Positions 2,733-22,374 of a stretch of DNA of 22,374 bases are shown piece after piece (within the stretch, counting starts at the first letter, position 1; each line of letters opens with the position of its first letter). Below the pieces are notes generated by a model, which had not been told where the DNA came from, made no database searches, and was given only the letters and a program-made list of their open reading frames with translations. The position numbers and the translations under genes are program-made. The DNA comes from Cochliopodium minus (taxonomy: Eukaryota > Discosea > Himatismenida > Cochliopodiidae). The DNA is taken from NCBI GenBank assembly GCA_024220525.1, contig JAMYWO010000013.1, positions 228,904 to 251,277 on the forward strand, given 5' to 3'.

Positions 2733-2907
2733 TTCATCAAAAAAGTATATAATTGAGAATATTTATGGATGTTATGATCAAAGATAGTCTTATATATCTT
2801 TCAAAGTTTTTTTTTTTTGATTTCTTTGACAAAAATAAAAAAAAATTTCACTTTTTATTTCAACTTTATAAAGCAACATCCTTTTTTTAAATAATTTTTT
2901 TCAGCAA
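2733..2907. promoter_or_regulatory. Shared intergenic region between divergent genes
   Basis: These 175 bp separate the ATGs of the LRR-VPS9 gene (minus) and the F-box gene (plus), so both promoters must lie here or in the transcribed leaders. The stretch is AT-rich, with a T10 run around 2809-2818. I see no specific factor site. Confidence 0.5.
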
Positions 2908-4518
2908 ATGGATAATTCGGATATATGCAGTTTGAATAGTTTACCTTCCATAATCATTTTCTTGATCTTCAAGAATTTGAAAGTGAATGAAATGATAAAT
3001 TGCTTCAAAACATGCAAATCATGGAACAAAGCGATAGATAATGAAAGATTATGGTAAAAACTGGATTTCAAATTGAAAAAATAATACATCAAATAAATCA
3101 AACAAACTCTTTATATTCTTCAATAATACAAGAATGATTCAAGAATTGGAAATCACATCCTCAAAATTAATTTTATAATAAGTATCCTATTTTTGAAAAT
3201 TCTATTTATAAAAAGATAAAAGCAAATATATCAAATTCTTGCCTAATTTTAAGTTTTTAAATACCGTAATCTATCATAGGAATCAACTTTACAAATTCTT
3301 TTATACAAACACACCTCCCAACATTGAGAACTGGAGAGAATTATTCACTAAAAGATATCTAGCAAACAAAAACATGTTGAAAGGAGATTGCACACTAAGC
3401 AGGCTGAGGTACGCAGATAAAGCAATAAAAGGGTTGTACTTGGATCAAAAGAAAATAATATCTTTTTCAGGGGACTCCTCTCTCAATGAAATAGATGTGA
3501 AAACTGGAAAACTATTAAGAAAAGTAAAGAAATTTTAAAAAAATTTAAAATTTAAAAAAAAAAAAAATAATTTTTTTTAATTAGTCTTTAATTACCTCTA
3601 AAAACTTGACTTCTTACTACTTCCATTTACACAAGATTGTGGTACATAATGAATACTTAATCCTCAATTTCGAGAAGGGATTTACTATAACCAAATTCAA
3701 TGAGAAAAGCGATGCGTACGAGATTTACTATGACGTATACAACCCAAGTAACTTGTTCAAGTAAAAAAAATTTTACAAACTATTTTCTAAAAACTTTTTC
3801 ATTCGTTTGAGTTTTGTTTTTGTAACAGATGATTTGAAATAAATTGTTAAGGATTTTTTTCTTTAAATAATGTTAAATTTTTTTATTTTCAATAATTTCT
3901 TTATTAATATTTTGATAAAACTAGATTTTTAGGAATTTGGGAGGAAAAAATTGTTTATTTTTTTACGCAGACGGGCTGTGAAGGGAATATCAGGGTGATA
4001 GATCTCAAATCTCCTGAAGAGACGCTACGAGAATACACAACTAACATTGTCATGAAGGAGTCTTACTTCAAGAGGGTAAGTTGGATGAAGGAAAATAGGA
4101 TTTTCATACTCTTTGATGAAAATAACTCGAATAACTTTCTTGTACGTTATTTTACCCTTTTAAAAAGTAAATCGTTTTAAAAATTGAATTTTTAATTTTA
4201 TTTTTAATACAATTATTTTGTTATAATCTTTTTTTCCCATTTTATTATTATTTTTATTTTTATTTTTATTTTTTAACAAATAATTTTTTTTTTTTTATAG
4301 ATGACTTATTGTATGAAGGAGAGTTCAAATCTACTGACATGTCAGAAAGAACTCCAGTAAAGGGAATCAAAAACAGCCTGTACTACGTCAACAGCAAAAA
4401 CATTTTCGTCAAAGTCAATATTCTTAAAAATAAGGTCCAAGAGTTGACCAACCCAATAAAAATACAGCAATCTGAAACAATGGATTCATTTGGTAAAAAC
4501 AATAGATTGAAGTTTTAA
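2908..4518 (+). CDS. F-box protein with propeller-like C-terminal region
   Basis: Exons: 2908-3053, 3280-3523, 3585-3760, 3925-4145, 4301-4518, spliced in phase to 334 residues. Residues 8-49 form an F-box (LPSIIIFLIFKNL, then CKSWNKAIDNERLW), the Skp1-binding module of SCF ubiquitin ligases. The following LWNQLYKFF and NWRELFTKRY are the usual post-F-box helices. After this come blade-like strands such as IISFSGDSSLNEIDVKTGKLL and GNIRVIDLKSPEE, which resemble divergent WD40 or similar propeller blades and would be the substrate-binding part; that role is inferred. The exon 4 donor was taken at 4146 rather than 4142 because only the later one keeps the exon 5 frame. The last codons could instead be intron (GTAAAA near 4492), with a lost exon beyond the N at 4690, so the C-terminus is less certain. 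Confidence 0.78.
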
Positions 4519-14147: not shown

Positions 14148-17100
14148 ATGATAAATTCCCAAATTGATGTTGATGAATTTATTGATTTATTGATTCAAAC
14201 AAAGCTTATTTTATGGTTCTCAAATATTGCTGATAAATCAAATTTTTCTTTTTATGAGGAATCAAAATTTAAGGAATTTGGAATCAGTGAAGAAAATATA
14301 TACACAATCTCAAATAAATGGGATATTATAAAGGTAATAAAAAATTGAGAAATATATCAAAATAAAAATATAATAATTTCTTTCAAAGAACAATTATGAA
14401 ATAATGGAAAAATTTGAAGATAAATTGAAAGAGAACACGAAAAATAATACTGATGATCACAATCAATTAACCAATAAAGATGATGAAACATCATTTCATA
14501 ATCAAAATGATATAATTGACTTTTATAGAAAAGATATTGATGAAAAAAAAACATTAGTTTATGAAAATGAATCTTCAAAAAATTGTATATCTGTTGGGAA
14601 TGATTTCAATCAAACTGATAAGGTAAAAAAAACTCATTATCTTTTTTTAATTTTTTAAATGTTTTTTAAAAGAGAGAAAAAATAGAAGGAGGTTTTCAAA
14701 TTTATGAGAAAGTTGATGTTTTCATTTTTGGAAACAACAAGTATGAAGTTCAAGGGATCCCTGAACTGAAAGGATCAATAAATGACTGTGAAGGAATTAG
14801 AAAACTTTTCAAAGAAAAGAAATACAATGTAAAAGAAACACAAACTGATTTCAAAAAAATGGAAATGGAAGAAGTGTTGAAAAAATACGAGCAAAAAGAA
14901 GAAATGAAAGATTTTGAAACAAGTTTGTTGGTTTTTTATTTTTCGGGTCATGGATTTAAAGTTAATGAGGAAAATAAATTTTATGTTTGTTGTGTTGATT
15001 TCGATCCGAAAAACATTGATAAAGGAGGAATCGAATTTTCTGAATTGAGAGAAATGATATTGAGAATGAAATACAAACACAATTTAATTATTTTGGACTG
15101 TTGTTATTCGGGGAGTGCTTTGGGAGAAATCCCAGAAATGCACGAAAATAAAGATCTCATTGAAAATTCGTTTCACAAGGGAATTTGGTGTATCACTTCT
15201 TGTGGTAAAAATTTTGAATCCAAAGAAATAAATAAAAACAGAGAATGGAGAAGTTGTTTTTCTAGATATTTTGAAAAAGTTATGAGGGAGGATTCTGAAT
15301 ACAATCTTTTGAGTCCAAAACAAATTGTTGAAAAAATAAGGGATTTGATGAAAAATGATAATAAACATAACCTCCTTTTGGATTTTCCTAGATATGGAAG
15401 TTTGGTGAAAGATGATTTTTATCTTATTGGAATTCCTCTTCTTTCAAAAATAAATGATTATTTTCTTTATGGTAAAACCTTAATAGAAATTGAAAATTCG
15501 AAAAATTCGTTTAATATTCGCAATGAAGAAATTCAACAATTGAAGAAAAAAAAAGATGGGGAATCGAATTTGATTAGTGAATTGAAAAATAAATTGATAA
15601 CGTATTATGAAAAAAATTTTTTAATAACTTCTGAATATAGTGAAAAAAGGAGTATAGTGGACATCTTTCCCCTTGAAATTAAGGACTCGAACGAAAAAAA
15701 AGATGAAAAACAATCAAGAAATGTGAAAGATCAGTTTGAGAAACAAATGAGAATAATGGAAAAAATAGAATTGAAAAATATTTTTAAAAAAATTGAAAAA
15801 AAAGAAAAGAGGATTTTGATTGAAGGAAAAGCGGGAATAGGTAAATCTACACTTTCTAAATTTATTTGTAGACAGCTTACCAATAATCGTCTATGGAAAG
15901 AAGAAGGTTTTGTGTTTGTTTTTTATGTTGATTTGAAAAATTTTGATGATGGAAATATTTTTAACTACATAAATAAAACTTACTTTGAAAAAACTATTTA
16001 TTCCGAAATCGAAATTATTAAAAATTTGGTTGATATGAATCAAAAAAATCAAATTTTGTTTGTTTTAGATGGATTGGATGAAATTGAAATTTCATCAAAT
16101 GAAAACGAAAAAATATCGAAAATAAAAAATTCTTTGAATGATTTGCTTGTTTTTAAAAATGTAATCATCACAACTAGACCAGAAATAAATTCTCAAATAA
16201 AGGGAGTTTCTTTAAAATTGACAATTATTGGCTTTGAAGATGTTGCTATTCAAAGTTTTATTAAAAATTATTTTAAAGGTGAAAATGAAAAGGAAAAATT
16301 GAAAAATATACAGATTTTTTTAAACAATGAATCAATAAAGTCATTGTGTCATATTCCTTTACTCCTAGATATGATTTGTTTCATTTTTGATGATGAAAAA
16401 AATGAAAGTATTCAAAACATGAAAGAAAGTAAAATTATGAAAATGGGTGATATTTATGAAAATATGATCAGATTGTTACTTAAAAGAAGTATCAAACAAG
16501 AATATTTGACAAATATATCATTAAGTATTATTGAAAAAGTTTCTTTTGAATGTTTCAAAAATAAAAAATTTAATTTTCATGAAAATGACATTGAAAAAGA
16601 AGTAGAACGTTCAATCAAAAATTTTAACAAAGGGAGTAAAAAGAAAACTGAAGAAAAAAAATTAATAATGGAATCGATAAAAAAATGTGGAATTTTCAAA
16701 AAATTTGGAAAAAATCTTGAAATGTTTGTATTTGAATTTTCGCATTTTTCTTTCCAAGAATATTTTTGTTCTCTTTTCATTTTCAAAAAATTAATGGAGG
16801 AAAACGAAAAGAACATTAATATTAATAAAAGTGAAATGTGCGGATGGATAAAAATGTCTAAATTAAATCAATGGTTTGGATCAACTTTGGTGATCCCTTT
16901 TTTGTCTTATCTTTATGGAAAAGAGAGTTGGGATAAATATTATGATTTTTTCAATGTTGCATTCGATGGAATATTTGGGAATACCCACTATGTAAATTAT
17001 TATTCTGGTATTTTCGAAAAACAAATTCTATTGTGCATAGAAGAGTTTTTCAATAAAAATACAAAGAAAGTTGTTTCCAAAATCATCAATGAAAAAATAA

Positions 17101-18845
17101 ATAACAAATATCCACCTTTTGATGGCTGTGATTTTGTAAAAATTTTTTCAATTTCAAACAGTTTAGAATTGATCAAACATATTATTTTGACAATTGAAAA
17201 TGATAAATTTGAATTATTCAATTTTTTGGTTTTTCTTTTTTTCAAAAATAAAAATGTTGAAATAGTGAAATATTTGGTTGATATTAAAAGTGTGTTAAAT
17301 TTACAAGACAACAGAAGATGTACACTTTTTCATTTGGCTTGTAAAAATGATATTCAAATAATTAAATATTTTGTAAAAGCAAAGATGGATTTAAAATTAA
17401 AAGATGATGATGGAAGAACACCACTTCTTTTTGCTTGTAAAAATAATGGAAATATTGAAATAATAAAATATTTGATTGAAAATAAAAGTGATTTAAAATT
17501 AAAAGACAAAAATGAAAGGACACTTTTTCATTTTGCTTGTAAAAATAATGGAAATATTGAAGTAATAAAATATTTGATTGAAAATAATGGAGATTTAAAT
17601 TCGAAAGACAACAATGATAATACTCCATTCCATATGGCTTGTGAAAATAATGGAAATATTGAAATAATAAAATATTTGATTGAAAAAAAAGGGAATTTAA
17701 AATTAAAAGATAAAAATGAAAGAACTCCTTTCCATATGGCTTGTGAAAATAATGGAAATATTGAAATAATAAAATATTTGATTAAAAATAAAGGAGATTT
17801 AAAATTAAAAGATAAAAATGAAAGAACACCTCTTCATTTTGCTTGTGAGGATGGAAATGTTGAAATAATAAAATATTTGATTAAAAATAAAGGAGATTTA
17901 AAATTAAAAGATAAAAATGGAGAAACTCCCCTTGATTTGGCACGCAAAAATAATGGAAATAAAGAAAATAAAAGTGACAGAAATACTCACCTTCATTTTG
18001 CTTGTAAAAATGGAAATATTGAAATAATAAAATATTTGATTGAGATTAAAAGTGATTTGAATTCAACAGATAATGATGGAAATACTCCATTCCATGTGGC
18101 TTGTGAAAATAATGGAAATATTGAAATAATAAAATATTTGTTTGAAAATAAAGGAGATTTAAAATTAAAAGATAAAAATGAAAGAACACCTCTTCATTTT
18201 GCTTGTAAAAATTATAGAAATTTTGAAATAATAAATTTTTTGATTAAAAATAAAGGAGATTTAAATTCGAAAGACAACAATGGAAATAATCCGTTCCATA
18301 TGATTTGTGAAATTTATGGAAATATTGAAACAATAAAATATTTGATTGAAAATAAAGGAGATTTAAAATTAAAAGATAAAAATGGGAGAACAGCTTTTCA
18401 TTTTGCTTGTAAAAATGGAAATATTGAAACATTAAAATATTTTATTGAAAATAAAAGTGATCCAAACATTAAGAACAACAATGATAATACTCCATTCCAT
18501 GTGGCTTGTGAAAATAATAGAAATTTTGGAACAATAAAATATTTGGTTGAAAATAAGGGAGATTTAAAATTAAAAGATAAAAATGGAAGGACACCTTTTC
18601 ATTTTGCTTGTAAAAATAGAAATATTGAAGTAATAAAATATTTGTTTGAAAATAAAGGAGATTTAAATTCGAAAGACAACAATGATAATACTCCATTCCA
18701 TGTAGCTTGTGAATATAATGGAAATATTGAAATAATAAAATATTTGGTTGAAAATAAAAGTGATTTAAATATAAAAAATCATAATGGAGAAACTCCCATT
18801 GATTTGGCACGTAAAAATAATGTAAACATACAAATAGTGATTTGA
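14148..18845 (+). CDS. NLR-like protein: caspase-like protease, NACHT NTPase, ankyrin repeats
   Basis: Exons 14148-14333, 14389-14622, 14673-18845 (all phase 0) give 1530 residues. Residues 1-62 are a short helical N-terminus, faintly SAM-like; 63-140 are a polar linker. Residues about 150-345 are a C14 caspase/metacaspase-type domain: IFGNNKYEVQGIPELKGSIND, catalytic His in FSGHG (H233), catalytic Cys in DCCYSG (C284). The NACHT module follows: P-loop GKAGIGKST (525-533), Walker B VLDGLDE (about 604-610), sensor-type ITTRPE, CHIPLLL, and the winged-helix signature HFSFQEYF (from 831). Residues about 997-1530 are about 15 ankyrin repeats. The architecture is that of NLR-type signal-sensing ATPases: the repeats detect, NACHT oligomerises, the protease executes. 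Fungal and bacterial proteins pair the same modules; a defence or cell-death role here is inferred. Codon use is extremely A/T-ending. Confidence 0.9.
17240..18830 (+). repeat. Ankyrin repeat array of about 99-nt units with dimeric higher-order period
   Basis: About 15 units of 33 residues are very similar at DNA level (ATTGAAATAATAAAATATTT recurs). Units alternate between a KLKDKN(E/G)RTP.HFACKN type and a NSKDNN(D/G)NTPFHVACEN type, most clearly in the second half, so the real duplicated element there is a pair (about 200 nt). The terminal cap signature GETPxDLARKNN occurs at the C-terminus and also internally, at about 17920-17950. There it is followed by a shortened unit. Confidence 0.9.
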
Positions 18846-20716: not shown

Positions 20717-22093
20717 TCAAAATAAATGACAGAATTTTTTTTCTTTTGGAACTAAGATCATTCTTTCTTCAAGAAGCATTATTTGATTTGCCAAATCAGC
20801 AAAAGCTTCATCCACATTCACATTTTCCAAAGCGGATATTTCAAAGAAAGGAAGACCAATTTTATCTGCAAAGTTTTTTCCTTCTTCAAAACTTACCTCC
20901 CTTTCTTTCAAGTCTGACTTATTTCCTAAAAAAATTTCTACATTATTTTTTTTCTGTTTTTTTTTTCTAAATTAATTGATTTATTTATTTATTTTACCTA
21001 CCAATACACCATTATATTTTTCACTATCTTTAGCTCTCAGTATTTCACAATGAAAGTAATCAATCATATAAAAGGAATCCCTGTCAGACACTGAGTATAC
21101 ATGAAAAAATCCTTCAGAGGTGTAGTAATAATGGTCTTTCAATGAACTATACTTTATTATTTGAAAAAATCGAAAAGATTGAAAAAAAACTTATTAATTT
21201 AAAAAAATTCCAATAAAAATTTCATTCAAAAAAATTTAAAAATTTTACTAAAATTTTTATCTAATACTTTTAATTTTTTTTTTTACTTCTTCTAATGAGG
21301 ATGCTAAATCAAGTATTTCAAAACGAACCTCTAATCCTTCAATATTTTTCGTACAGAAATAAACATCTTCCATTGTTGGATCAGATTCCACAAACTCACC
21401 CCTTATATATCTCAATAATGTTGACGATTTCCCCACAGCACCTTTTCCCGCCATAAATATTTTGAAGGGATCTCTCACTAATTTTTATATTTTTATATTT
21501 TTATTTTTTATTTTTTTTTATTTTTTTTTTACGTTTTAATTTTCTCCTTTTGTTTACAACCTCTGATACTTTTTTCTTCCAGTTTGTTTTATAATTTTTT
21601 TCAATTTCTTTCGAGTTTCTCATCAATTTCAGATATATTTGTTTCCATAATTGTTTTTCTAAATGTATGAATTGCATAAATTGAATATGCAAAGATCATT
21701 ATGGAATAAACCACAATAATTTTATAAACGAGAAATATTTAAAAATATTTGCTCTAAATTGAAAATATTTTTTGTGAGAATTTTGTTTGTGCCATATTAT
21801 TTGGATCAATTTCTATATCTCAACATAAGATACTATATAATTGATCAATGATTATTATTATTTGTATACAAATTATCATTTTTGCTAATAAATTTCATCA
21901 AAATGATAATGTTCTCAAATTTGTATATGATTTATTCTGTTATATATTTTTTTGTGAATGATGTTTTTTTTAAACCTTTGATGAGAATATATAAGGTTTT
22001 GGAAGTAATTTCCAATCTTGCCATGTCTTGATAACCAAATTCTTTGAATATCATTTCCAATAGCACCTTTGGAAGTTGTTGAAATAAGCTCAT
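20717..22093 (-). CDS. F-box domain fused to a Ras-like GTPase with CaaX terminus
   Basis: Exons (minus): 22093-21976, 21658-21533, 21477-21287, 21151-20998, 20925-20717, all GT-AG and in phase, giving 265 residues. Residues 5-45 are an F-box (LPKVLLEMIFKEFGYQDMAR, then SKTLYIL), followed by LWKQIYLKLM and NWKKKVSEVV, the same post-F-box layout as in the F-box gene at 2908. From residue 85 a small GTPase starts: G1 GKGAVGKSS (92-100), switch I DPT (T116), G3 DLAS (138-141, normally DTAG), G4 NKSD (198-201), G5 ISAL. The protein ends KKFCHLF, a CaaX box that predicts prenylation (X = Phe usually geranylgeranyl). Inferred: a membrane-tethered, GTP-switchable SCF adaptor. The GTPase and F-box exons could be two genes only if the phase-matched 55-nt intron at 21532-21478 were coincidental and the GTPase had its own start; its only nearby ATG lies within G1. 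Confidence 0.8.
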
Positions 22094-22180
22094 TTTTTAA
22101 AAATTAAATTGAATATTAAAAAGGCTTTCAAATCAAGAAAATGAGTAATTTTGGAACTTATTAGGATTGAAGAAATAAAA
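22094..22180. promoter_or_regulatory. Very short divergent promoter between two F-box genes
   Basis: Only 87 bp separate the ATG of the F-box-Ras gene (minus) from the ATG of the next F-box gene (plus). The stretch is A/T-rich without a recognised motif, and it must serve both directions. Confidence 0.5.
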
Positions 22181-22374
22181 ATGAATAATATGATATCAGA
22201 TATTTCTCTTGTTCCAAGTTTAAACAAAAAAAATAAAAATAAAAAAAAAAAAATGAATTTTGTTGGGTTAGATAAAAATTCTACAACGATTATATTCTGT
22301 TATCTTGATTTGAAAAGTTTAATCAATTTATCCAAAACAAATAAACGATTGAATGAAATCTCAAAGAAAGAGAT
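22181..22374 (+). CDS. F-box protein, N-terminal part, cut by window edge
   Basis: An open frame starts at the ATG at 22181 and runs off the window (64 codons). After a Lys/Asn-rich leader come TTIIFCYLDLKSLINLSK and TNKRLNEISKKE, an F-box with the usual spacing of hydrophobic residues (compare IIIFLIFKNL and CKSWNKAIDNERLW in the gene at 2908). A second in-frame ATG at 22253 is an alternative start that omits the poly-Lys leader. The C-terminal domain is not visible. Confidence 0.65.
   Translation, partial: MNNMISDISLVPSLNKKNKNKKKKMNFVGLDKNSTTIIFCYLDLKSLINLSKTNKRLNEISKKE

Follow-up and report, generated by a model that had tools for sequence, protein, structure and literature searches.

A probable single gene for an F-box–Ras–CaaX protein in Cochliopodium minus, one of a recurrent set of F-box–small GTPase loci

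Does the minus-strand locus at positions 22093 to 20717 of a 22,374-nucleotide stretch of Cochliopodium minus DNA (hereafter the window, meaning that whole stretch) encode one protein that joins an F-box to a Ras-like GTPase, or two adjacent genes; and, if one protein, could it be a GTP-switched, membrane-tethered adaptor of a Skp1–cullin–F-box (SCF) ubiquitin ligase, as a first-pass annotation of the sequence proposed? On the sequence evidence assembled here, the locus is very probably a single spliced gene whose 265-residue product has the order F-box–Ras–CaaX and belongs to a set of F-box–small GTPase proteins that recurs in this genome. Five minus-strand exons, from 22093 to 20717, join to 798 nt, giving an open protein of 265 residues followed by TGA, and our re-reading of the sequence reproduced the first-pass coordinates, the five exons, their phases, and the introns at 21975-21659 and 21532-21478:

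21976..22093, minus strand: exon 1, with the ATG and most of the F-box, MSLFQQLPKVLLEMIF...LIK; phase 1 at its end
21659..21975, minus strand: intron 1, 317 nt, GT..AG; splits the F-box
21533..21658, minus strand: exon 2, with the end of the F-box (EKQLWKQIY) and a basic linker, NWKKKVSEVVNKRRKLK
21478..21532, minus strand: intron 2, 55 nt, 96% A+T; the fusion hinges on this junction
21287..21477, minus strand: exon 3, with beta-1, G1 (GKGAVGKS), switch I (DPT) and a degenerate G3 (DLASSLEE)
21152..21286, minus strand: intron 3, 135 nt; acceptor AAAG at 21152, hence exon 4 from 21151
20998..21151, minus strand: exon 4, YSSLKDHYYYTSEGFFHVYSVSDRDSF... through VLV ahead of G4
20926..20997, minus strand: intron 4, 72 nt
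20717..20925, minus strand: exon 5, with G4 (NKSD), G5 (SAL), a basic tail (KEKKF), the CaaX-type CHLF, and TGA at 20719-20717

The introns all run GT..AG, span 55-317 nt at 80-96% A+T, and fall in phases 1, 1, 0 and 1; G+C content is 24-36% in the exons and 4-20% in the introns. Splice-aware alignment of protein to DNA returned identical exons, which, as the template was the modelled protein, is an arithmetic check only.

Curated profiles recognise both modules in the predicted protein. F-box-like (PF12937) matches residues 4-49 (1.9e-6; 28 bits against a curated cut-off of 24.3) over profile positions 1-46 of 47, spread across exons 1 and 2, and F-box (PF00646) matches at 2.9e-5 (24.2 bits, cut-off 20.5), so the F-box called in the first pass stands above both Pfam cut-offs. 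Ras (PF00071) covers residues 87-246 at 2.4e-39 (134.9 bits, cut-off 21.6), with the Arf profile at 33.5 bits; the closest solved structures to the GTPase are Ral and Ras, RalA being first (4.7e-32), and of 818 solved sequences that match, the top 60 all belong to Ral, Ras, M-Ras or R-Ras. Pfam matches of the window protein include neither a leucine-rich repeat (LRR) nor a WD40 substrate-binding repeat, and neither FYVE nor BTB; the F-box match begins at residue 4. The chain closes with CHLF and then TGA, a CaaX-type end in keeping with both the Ras-family CaaX box and the initial annotation. That annotation had also credited the protein with a full set of GTPase motifs, which holds for GKGAVGKS, DPT, NKSD and SAL and fails at G3: the window protein reads LDLASSLEEY against LDTAGQEEY in Ras (we take DTAGQEEY as the reference letters), such that Ser-Ser-Leu replaces Gly60 and Gln61, and switch II has one extra residue in the alignment to RalA. 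Retained are P-loop Gly12, Lys16 and Ser17, switch I Thr35, and NKSD. In Ras, loss of Gln61 abolishes the hydrolysis stimulated by GTPase-activating protein (GAP), and Gly60 is required for the switch II change. Nucleotide binding by the window GTPase is thus plausible; a normal GTP/GDP cycle is doubtful because G3 is lost, and the proposed gating of the adaptor by nucleotide state through such a cycle is not supported for this copy.

The same arrangement recurs elsewhere in the 44.65-Mb, 598-contig genome of C. minus, in which we matched at least 164 Ras-family stretches (150 of 771 candidates scored) and at least 150 F-box-like stretches (150 of 469 candidates scored, all those listed being over the cut-off). 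Ten F-box–GTPase–CxxF loci were found in total: the window gene, C71, C41, C114, C224, and five on C11. With the fusion protein as query, a genome search yielded C71, C114 and C41, each in the order F-box, linker, Ras-type GTPase, CxxF; comparison of F-box and GTPase positions yielded five tandem F-box–Rho/Rac-type–CxxF units (C11a to C11e) within a 7.4-kb stretch (G000:C11:122900-130300; L059), and a search with one of these as query added C224, also of Rho/Rac type. The GTPase is Rap1-like in C71 (2.7e-59) and Rac1-like in C11b (1.2e-62), the two copies compared in this way. Four of the five other fusion proteins tested carry a Pfam F-box over the cut-off (C11a, C11b, C71, C114), with C41 slightly below it (19.6 vs 20.5 bits), and a home-made profile, composed of six C. 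minus F-boxes, four of them taken from fused loci, detects an F-box at each of the nine loci besides the window gene (per-locus best E between 1.4e-23 and 0.0033, weakest in C41). A CxxF end is present at all ten fused loci. Among unfused Ras/Rho rows 3 of 12 have one, rising to 6 of 15 once three C88/C96 copies with unsettled upstream parts are included; this count leaves out four Rab-like rows, and scores C39, which has no CaaX in its open frame, as non-F. An additional F-box exon at C4, 70% identical over residues 1-43, was traced through its first exon only, and stands outside the ten.

Could the window nonetheless contain an F-box gene and a Ras gene that lie side by side and have been joined wrongly? 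F-box genes are abundant here (at least 150 stretches over the cut-off), and a stop ten codons beyond the donor in the exon 2 frame means that retention of the intron could give an F-box-only product. The Ras part, however, has no start codon of its own. An in-frame ATG before beta-1 in the open frame is lacking at nine of ten fused loci and at one of 16 GTPases taken as unfused (Fisher p 3e-5), the latter comprising 11 intron-free open reading frames from a motif filter in the loci in hand (10 of 11 with an ATG) and five Rho genes (5 of 5), several of the 16 being near-copies of each other. In the window gene and C11a an ATG does occur inside beta-1 itself, and would yield a truncated first strand. 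Further, the window gene and C71 agree in the position and phase (1, 1, 0, 1) of all four introns, including those within the F-box and in the linker, C71 having one extra; its model was built with the window protein as guide, on which its acceptor choice leans. Because C41 lacks the F-box-internal intron and C114 has one elsewhere, the argument from shared introns is confined to C71; the Rho-type copies also lack that intron. Within the C11 array, five intron phases are common to C11b and C11e (2, 0, 1, 1, 1), and five to C11a and C11d (2, 0, 1, 0, 1). The identical order of domains at ten loci, five of them tandem units, also speaks against chance adjacency, as does the excess of F-boxes lying upstream of GTPases on the same strand within 1.1 kb: among the matches listed there are four such pairs, with none upstream on the other strand and two downstream, against a random expectation of 0.34 for upstream pairs, but two of the four are window-gene exons, and the figure is inflated by clustering. 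With the home-made profile, no upstream same-strand F-box was found at the 11 unfused GTPases with flanks, of which C479 adjoins a contig start; weak F-box matches lie downstream of the C3 Ras gene (L015; E 0.0015) and on the other strand at C483 (E 0.048). The five unfused Rho loci have little flank, and their unfused status rests on the F-box list described above. Given the missing start codon and the shared introns, we reject the two-gene reading as very improbable; the single fused gene of the first pass is supported by its intron-sharing paralogue and by the lack of a start for a separate Ras.

Several features of the set weigh against this reading. C224 carries an in-frame ATG ahead of beta-1. 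Stop-free, well-formed models were obtained for seven of the ten loci (window, C71, C11a, C11b, C11d, C11e and C224); the GTPase part of C41 (L055) is interrupted by a single in-frame stop, and this locus may be decayed, in which case the set could include decaying members. The C114 model is stop-free and fragmentary, with eight pieces of which some are tiny. C11c has two stops at the junction of F-box and linker, and the linker exon there lies in another frame, which suggests an intron missed at that point.

Is such a protein without precedent? RhoBTB proteins join an atypical GTPase to a cullin adaptor, namely a BTB domain for Cul3, with the GTPase first in the chain and no F-box. The window protein is alike in pairing an atypical GTPase with a cullin adaptor, and differs in the adaptor, no BTB having been found in it. 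FBXL2 resembles what we propose in being an F-box protein held at membranes by a prenyl group on a C-terminal CaaX, and differs in bearing an LRR substrate domain where the window protein has a GTPase. The CaaX of FBXL2 is reported to be required both for membrane localisation and for binding of its substrate IP3R3 (PMC5627969). The first-pass statement that no characterised protein couples an F-box to a Ras-like domain was mistaken: TbFRP, a FYVE–F-box–Ras-like GTPase of Trypanosoma brucei and Euglenozoa, was characterised in 2013 (PMC3593210). Like the window protein, TbFRP places an F-box before a C-terminal Ras-superfamily GTPase in one chain, and it is linked to endomembranes; the fusions described here differ in lacking FYVE, in having Ras/Rap or Rho/Rac as the GTPase, and in ending with a CaaX-type motif. 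The GTPase of TbFRP is Rab18-like, whereas the best solved matches of the window protein, given above, are all of Ral and Ras kinds, a comparison made without a Rab18 tree. Some members of the ARF family are reported to carry F-box or BTB domains, in what is described as recurrent recruitment into ubiquitin-dependent circuits (PMC8358228). These are, like the fusions here, lineage-specific unions of a small GTPase with a cullin-ligase adaptor domain, built on ARF where the window protein scores far higher with Ras than with Arf; the same text names TRIM23/ARD1, which combines a ubiquitin ligase part and a small GTPase in one chain, with RING/B-box and ARF in place of F-box and Ras. Among the titles and abstracts listed, with most subscription journals and all supplements beyond its scope, our literature search found no F-box fusion with a Ras-, Rap- or Rac-type GTPase aside from TbFRP. 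A Naegleria fowleri study cites F-box/BTB reviews beside a small-GTPase supplement, and that supplement may describe such fusions (PMC8296547). PMC12062965 makes no mention of Ras or GTPase, the term F-box is absent from the main text of PMC11550330, and PMC7285305 contained nothing of relevance. The arrangement thus appears already known in kind, from TbFRP and some ARF-family proteins; what seems new is its presence at ten loci in one genome, in both Ras/Rap and Rho/Rac backgrounds, with prenylation-type ends.

If the window copy has lost a normal switch, does the rest of the set retain one? The window gene, C71 and C11b keep Gly at position 12, which is changed in six of nine fused copies (C41 Ala, C11a Glu, C11c Val, C11d Ser, C11e Gln, C224 Val), compared with Gly in 12 of 12 unfused Ras/Rho rows; left out of this count are C114, for its fragmentary model, and four Rab-like unfused rows, in which the position differs. 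G3 reads AGQ in C11b, C11e and C224, Rap-like AGT in C71, and DGT in C41, and is degenerate in the window gene, C11a, C11c and C11d. Many fused copies therefore look GTP-locked. Three considerations temper that impression: some copies may still switch, to judge from C71 (G12 with a Rap-type Thr61), the canonical-looking C11b, and C11e and C224 with AGQ; the unfused rows are mostly top Pfam scorers, several of them near-copies, and hence biased to the canonical; and the divergent, unfused-looking Ras copies C88, C96 and C55 also have a damaged G3. We accordingly hold the idea that fused copies are especially degenerate as a trend only.

What might such proteins do? We favour, while stopping a little short of even confidence, an SCF receptor that is anchored at the membrane and recognises its partners through a Ras-like domain in a mostly fixed state. 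The F-box would dock on Skp1/Cul1, and prenylation of the C-terminal cysteine would hold the SCF at the membrane; the Ras-like domain would bind nucleotide and, without Gly60 and Gln61, cycle abnormally, acting as a recognition module, largely fixed, by which partners of effector or regulator type are presented for ubiquitination. Its mode of action would be comparable to that of RhoBTB with Cul3, or of prenylated FBXL2. Skp1 docking, prenylation and a membrane ligase role are all inferred for the window protein. The genome contains six stretches of the Skp1 family (best 5.6e-30), 29 of the cullin family (best 4.8e-90), and seven of prenyltransferase-beta type (PF00432, on C538 and C71); PF00432 also takes in RabGGTase beta and other enzymes, and so need not denote a CaaX enzyme as such, which weakens this part of the case.

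Skp1 binding need not imply ligase activity, since F-box proteins outside SCF exist, and the absence of LRR and WD40 repeats from the Pfam matches of the window protein would suit a role in which F-box and Skp1 serve as adaptor or folding partner of a membrane GTPase. We consider this unlikely, in view of the cullin and Skp1 families in the genome and of an F-box profile matched over nearly its full length. Alternatively, the F-box may be a built-in degron, through which SCF ubiquitinates the fused GTPase, so that destruction rather than GAP sets the amount of a GTP-locked Ras- or Rac-like protein. With G60/Q61 lost from the window gene, and G12 or Q61 from most of the fused copies read, turnover would be what remains to switch the protein off. 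The authors of the TbFRP study suggest that its F-box is possibly coupled to its rapid proteolysis (PMC3593210). Yet when TbFRP is cleaved, an intact GTPase fragment is left (PMC3593210). A short degron would moreover suffice, making a whole F-box and linker unnecessary, and the canonical-looking C11b and C71 would have no need of one; we regard self-turnover as a real contender that is on balance somewhat improbable. The rapid cleavage of TbFRP described there (PMC3593210) also weighs against the membrane-anchored receptor that we favour, as it would part the modules.

Have the modules been maintained together, and how often were they joined? The window F-box exon is under purifying selection relative to the C4 copy, with nonsynonymous divergence (dN) of 0.17 and synonymous divergence (dS) of 1.88 over 39 codons, this dS being near saturation. 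Between C11b and C11e, dN/dS is approximately 0.22 for the F-box, 0.24 for the linker and 0.29 for the GTPase, indicating that the F-box and GTPase modules are both maintained. The dS of this pair is 0.32 in the F-box and 0.97 in the GTPase, suggesting gene conversion or local exchange between the tandem F-box exons; with the ratios close and F-box dS lower, we dropped the notion that the F-box is the more constrained. A maximum-likelihood tree of 26 GTPase domains, in which C114, with its fragmentary spliced model, forms a long branch, groups Rho/Rac-type fusions with Rho genes and Ras/Rap-type fusions with Ras genes. The fused label changes four times on this tree, with at least three changes forced by well-supported branches, and none (0%) of 200 bootstrap trees unites the fused rows; descent of the fusions from one origin is therefore not supported, although the change count alone also allows one gain followed by losses of the F-box. 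Ras and Rho are old, separate families, and the intron inside the F-box of the window gene and C71 is missing from Rho-type copies; the simplest reading is that F-box and GTPase were joined independently at least twice.

The surroundings hold further members of these families. On the plus strand of the window, 22145-22374 is the start of another F-box gene (25.5 bits), divergent from the F-box–Ras gene and continuing past the window edge, and 2872-3057 is an F-box exon of a third (F-box-like, 2e-9); 1953-2762 on the minus strand is an exon of a leucine-rich repeat protein (LRR_8, 1.9e-16). A long plus-strand open frame at 14670-18845 has a caspase (C14)–NACHT–ankyrin-repeat composition, an NLR-like immune or cell-death architecture. 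Elsewhere in the genome, a cluster of F-box stretches lies at G000:C28, approximately 147-171 kb on the plus strand, one of them within a 5,037-residue open frame; a dense array of Rho-like exons at G000:C187 (approximately 25-58 kb, minus strand) looks like a large tandem expansion of Rho, and the matches listed include no F-box there; and a Ras-family match at G000:C1:633782-634150 (minus strand) falls inside a 14,711-residue open frame. At G000:C134:47485-48562 (plus strand) a Ras gene is followed, approximately 0.5 kb downstream on the same strand, by an F-box, the reverse of the fused order.

Taken more broadly, and tentatively, this lineage may have repeatedly built membrane-anchored, GTPase-containing SCF receptors, through separate Ras/Rap and Rho/Rac fusions of which one set was tandemly expanded, keeping the F-box and CxxF end as the GTPase face diversified, often into a locked state. 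If true, these repeated SCF–GTPase receptors would constitute a class of ligases that reads GTPase partners at membranes. That such loci recur suggests that the union of a small GTPase with a cullin adaptor can work, and the ten loci, ranging from canonical-looking to probably locked, offer natural variants with which to ask which of the two, GTPase or ligase, is under regulation.
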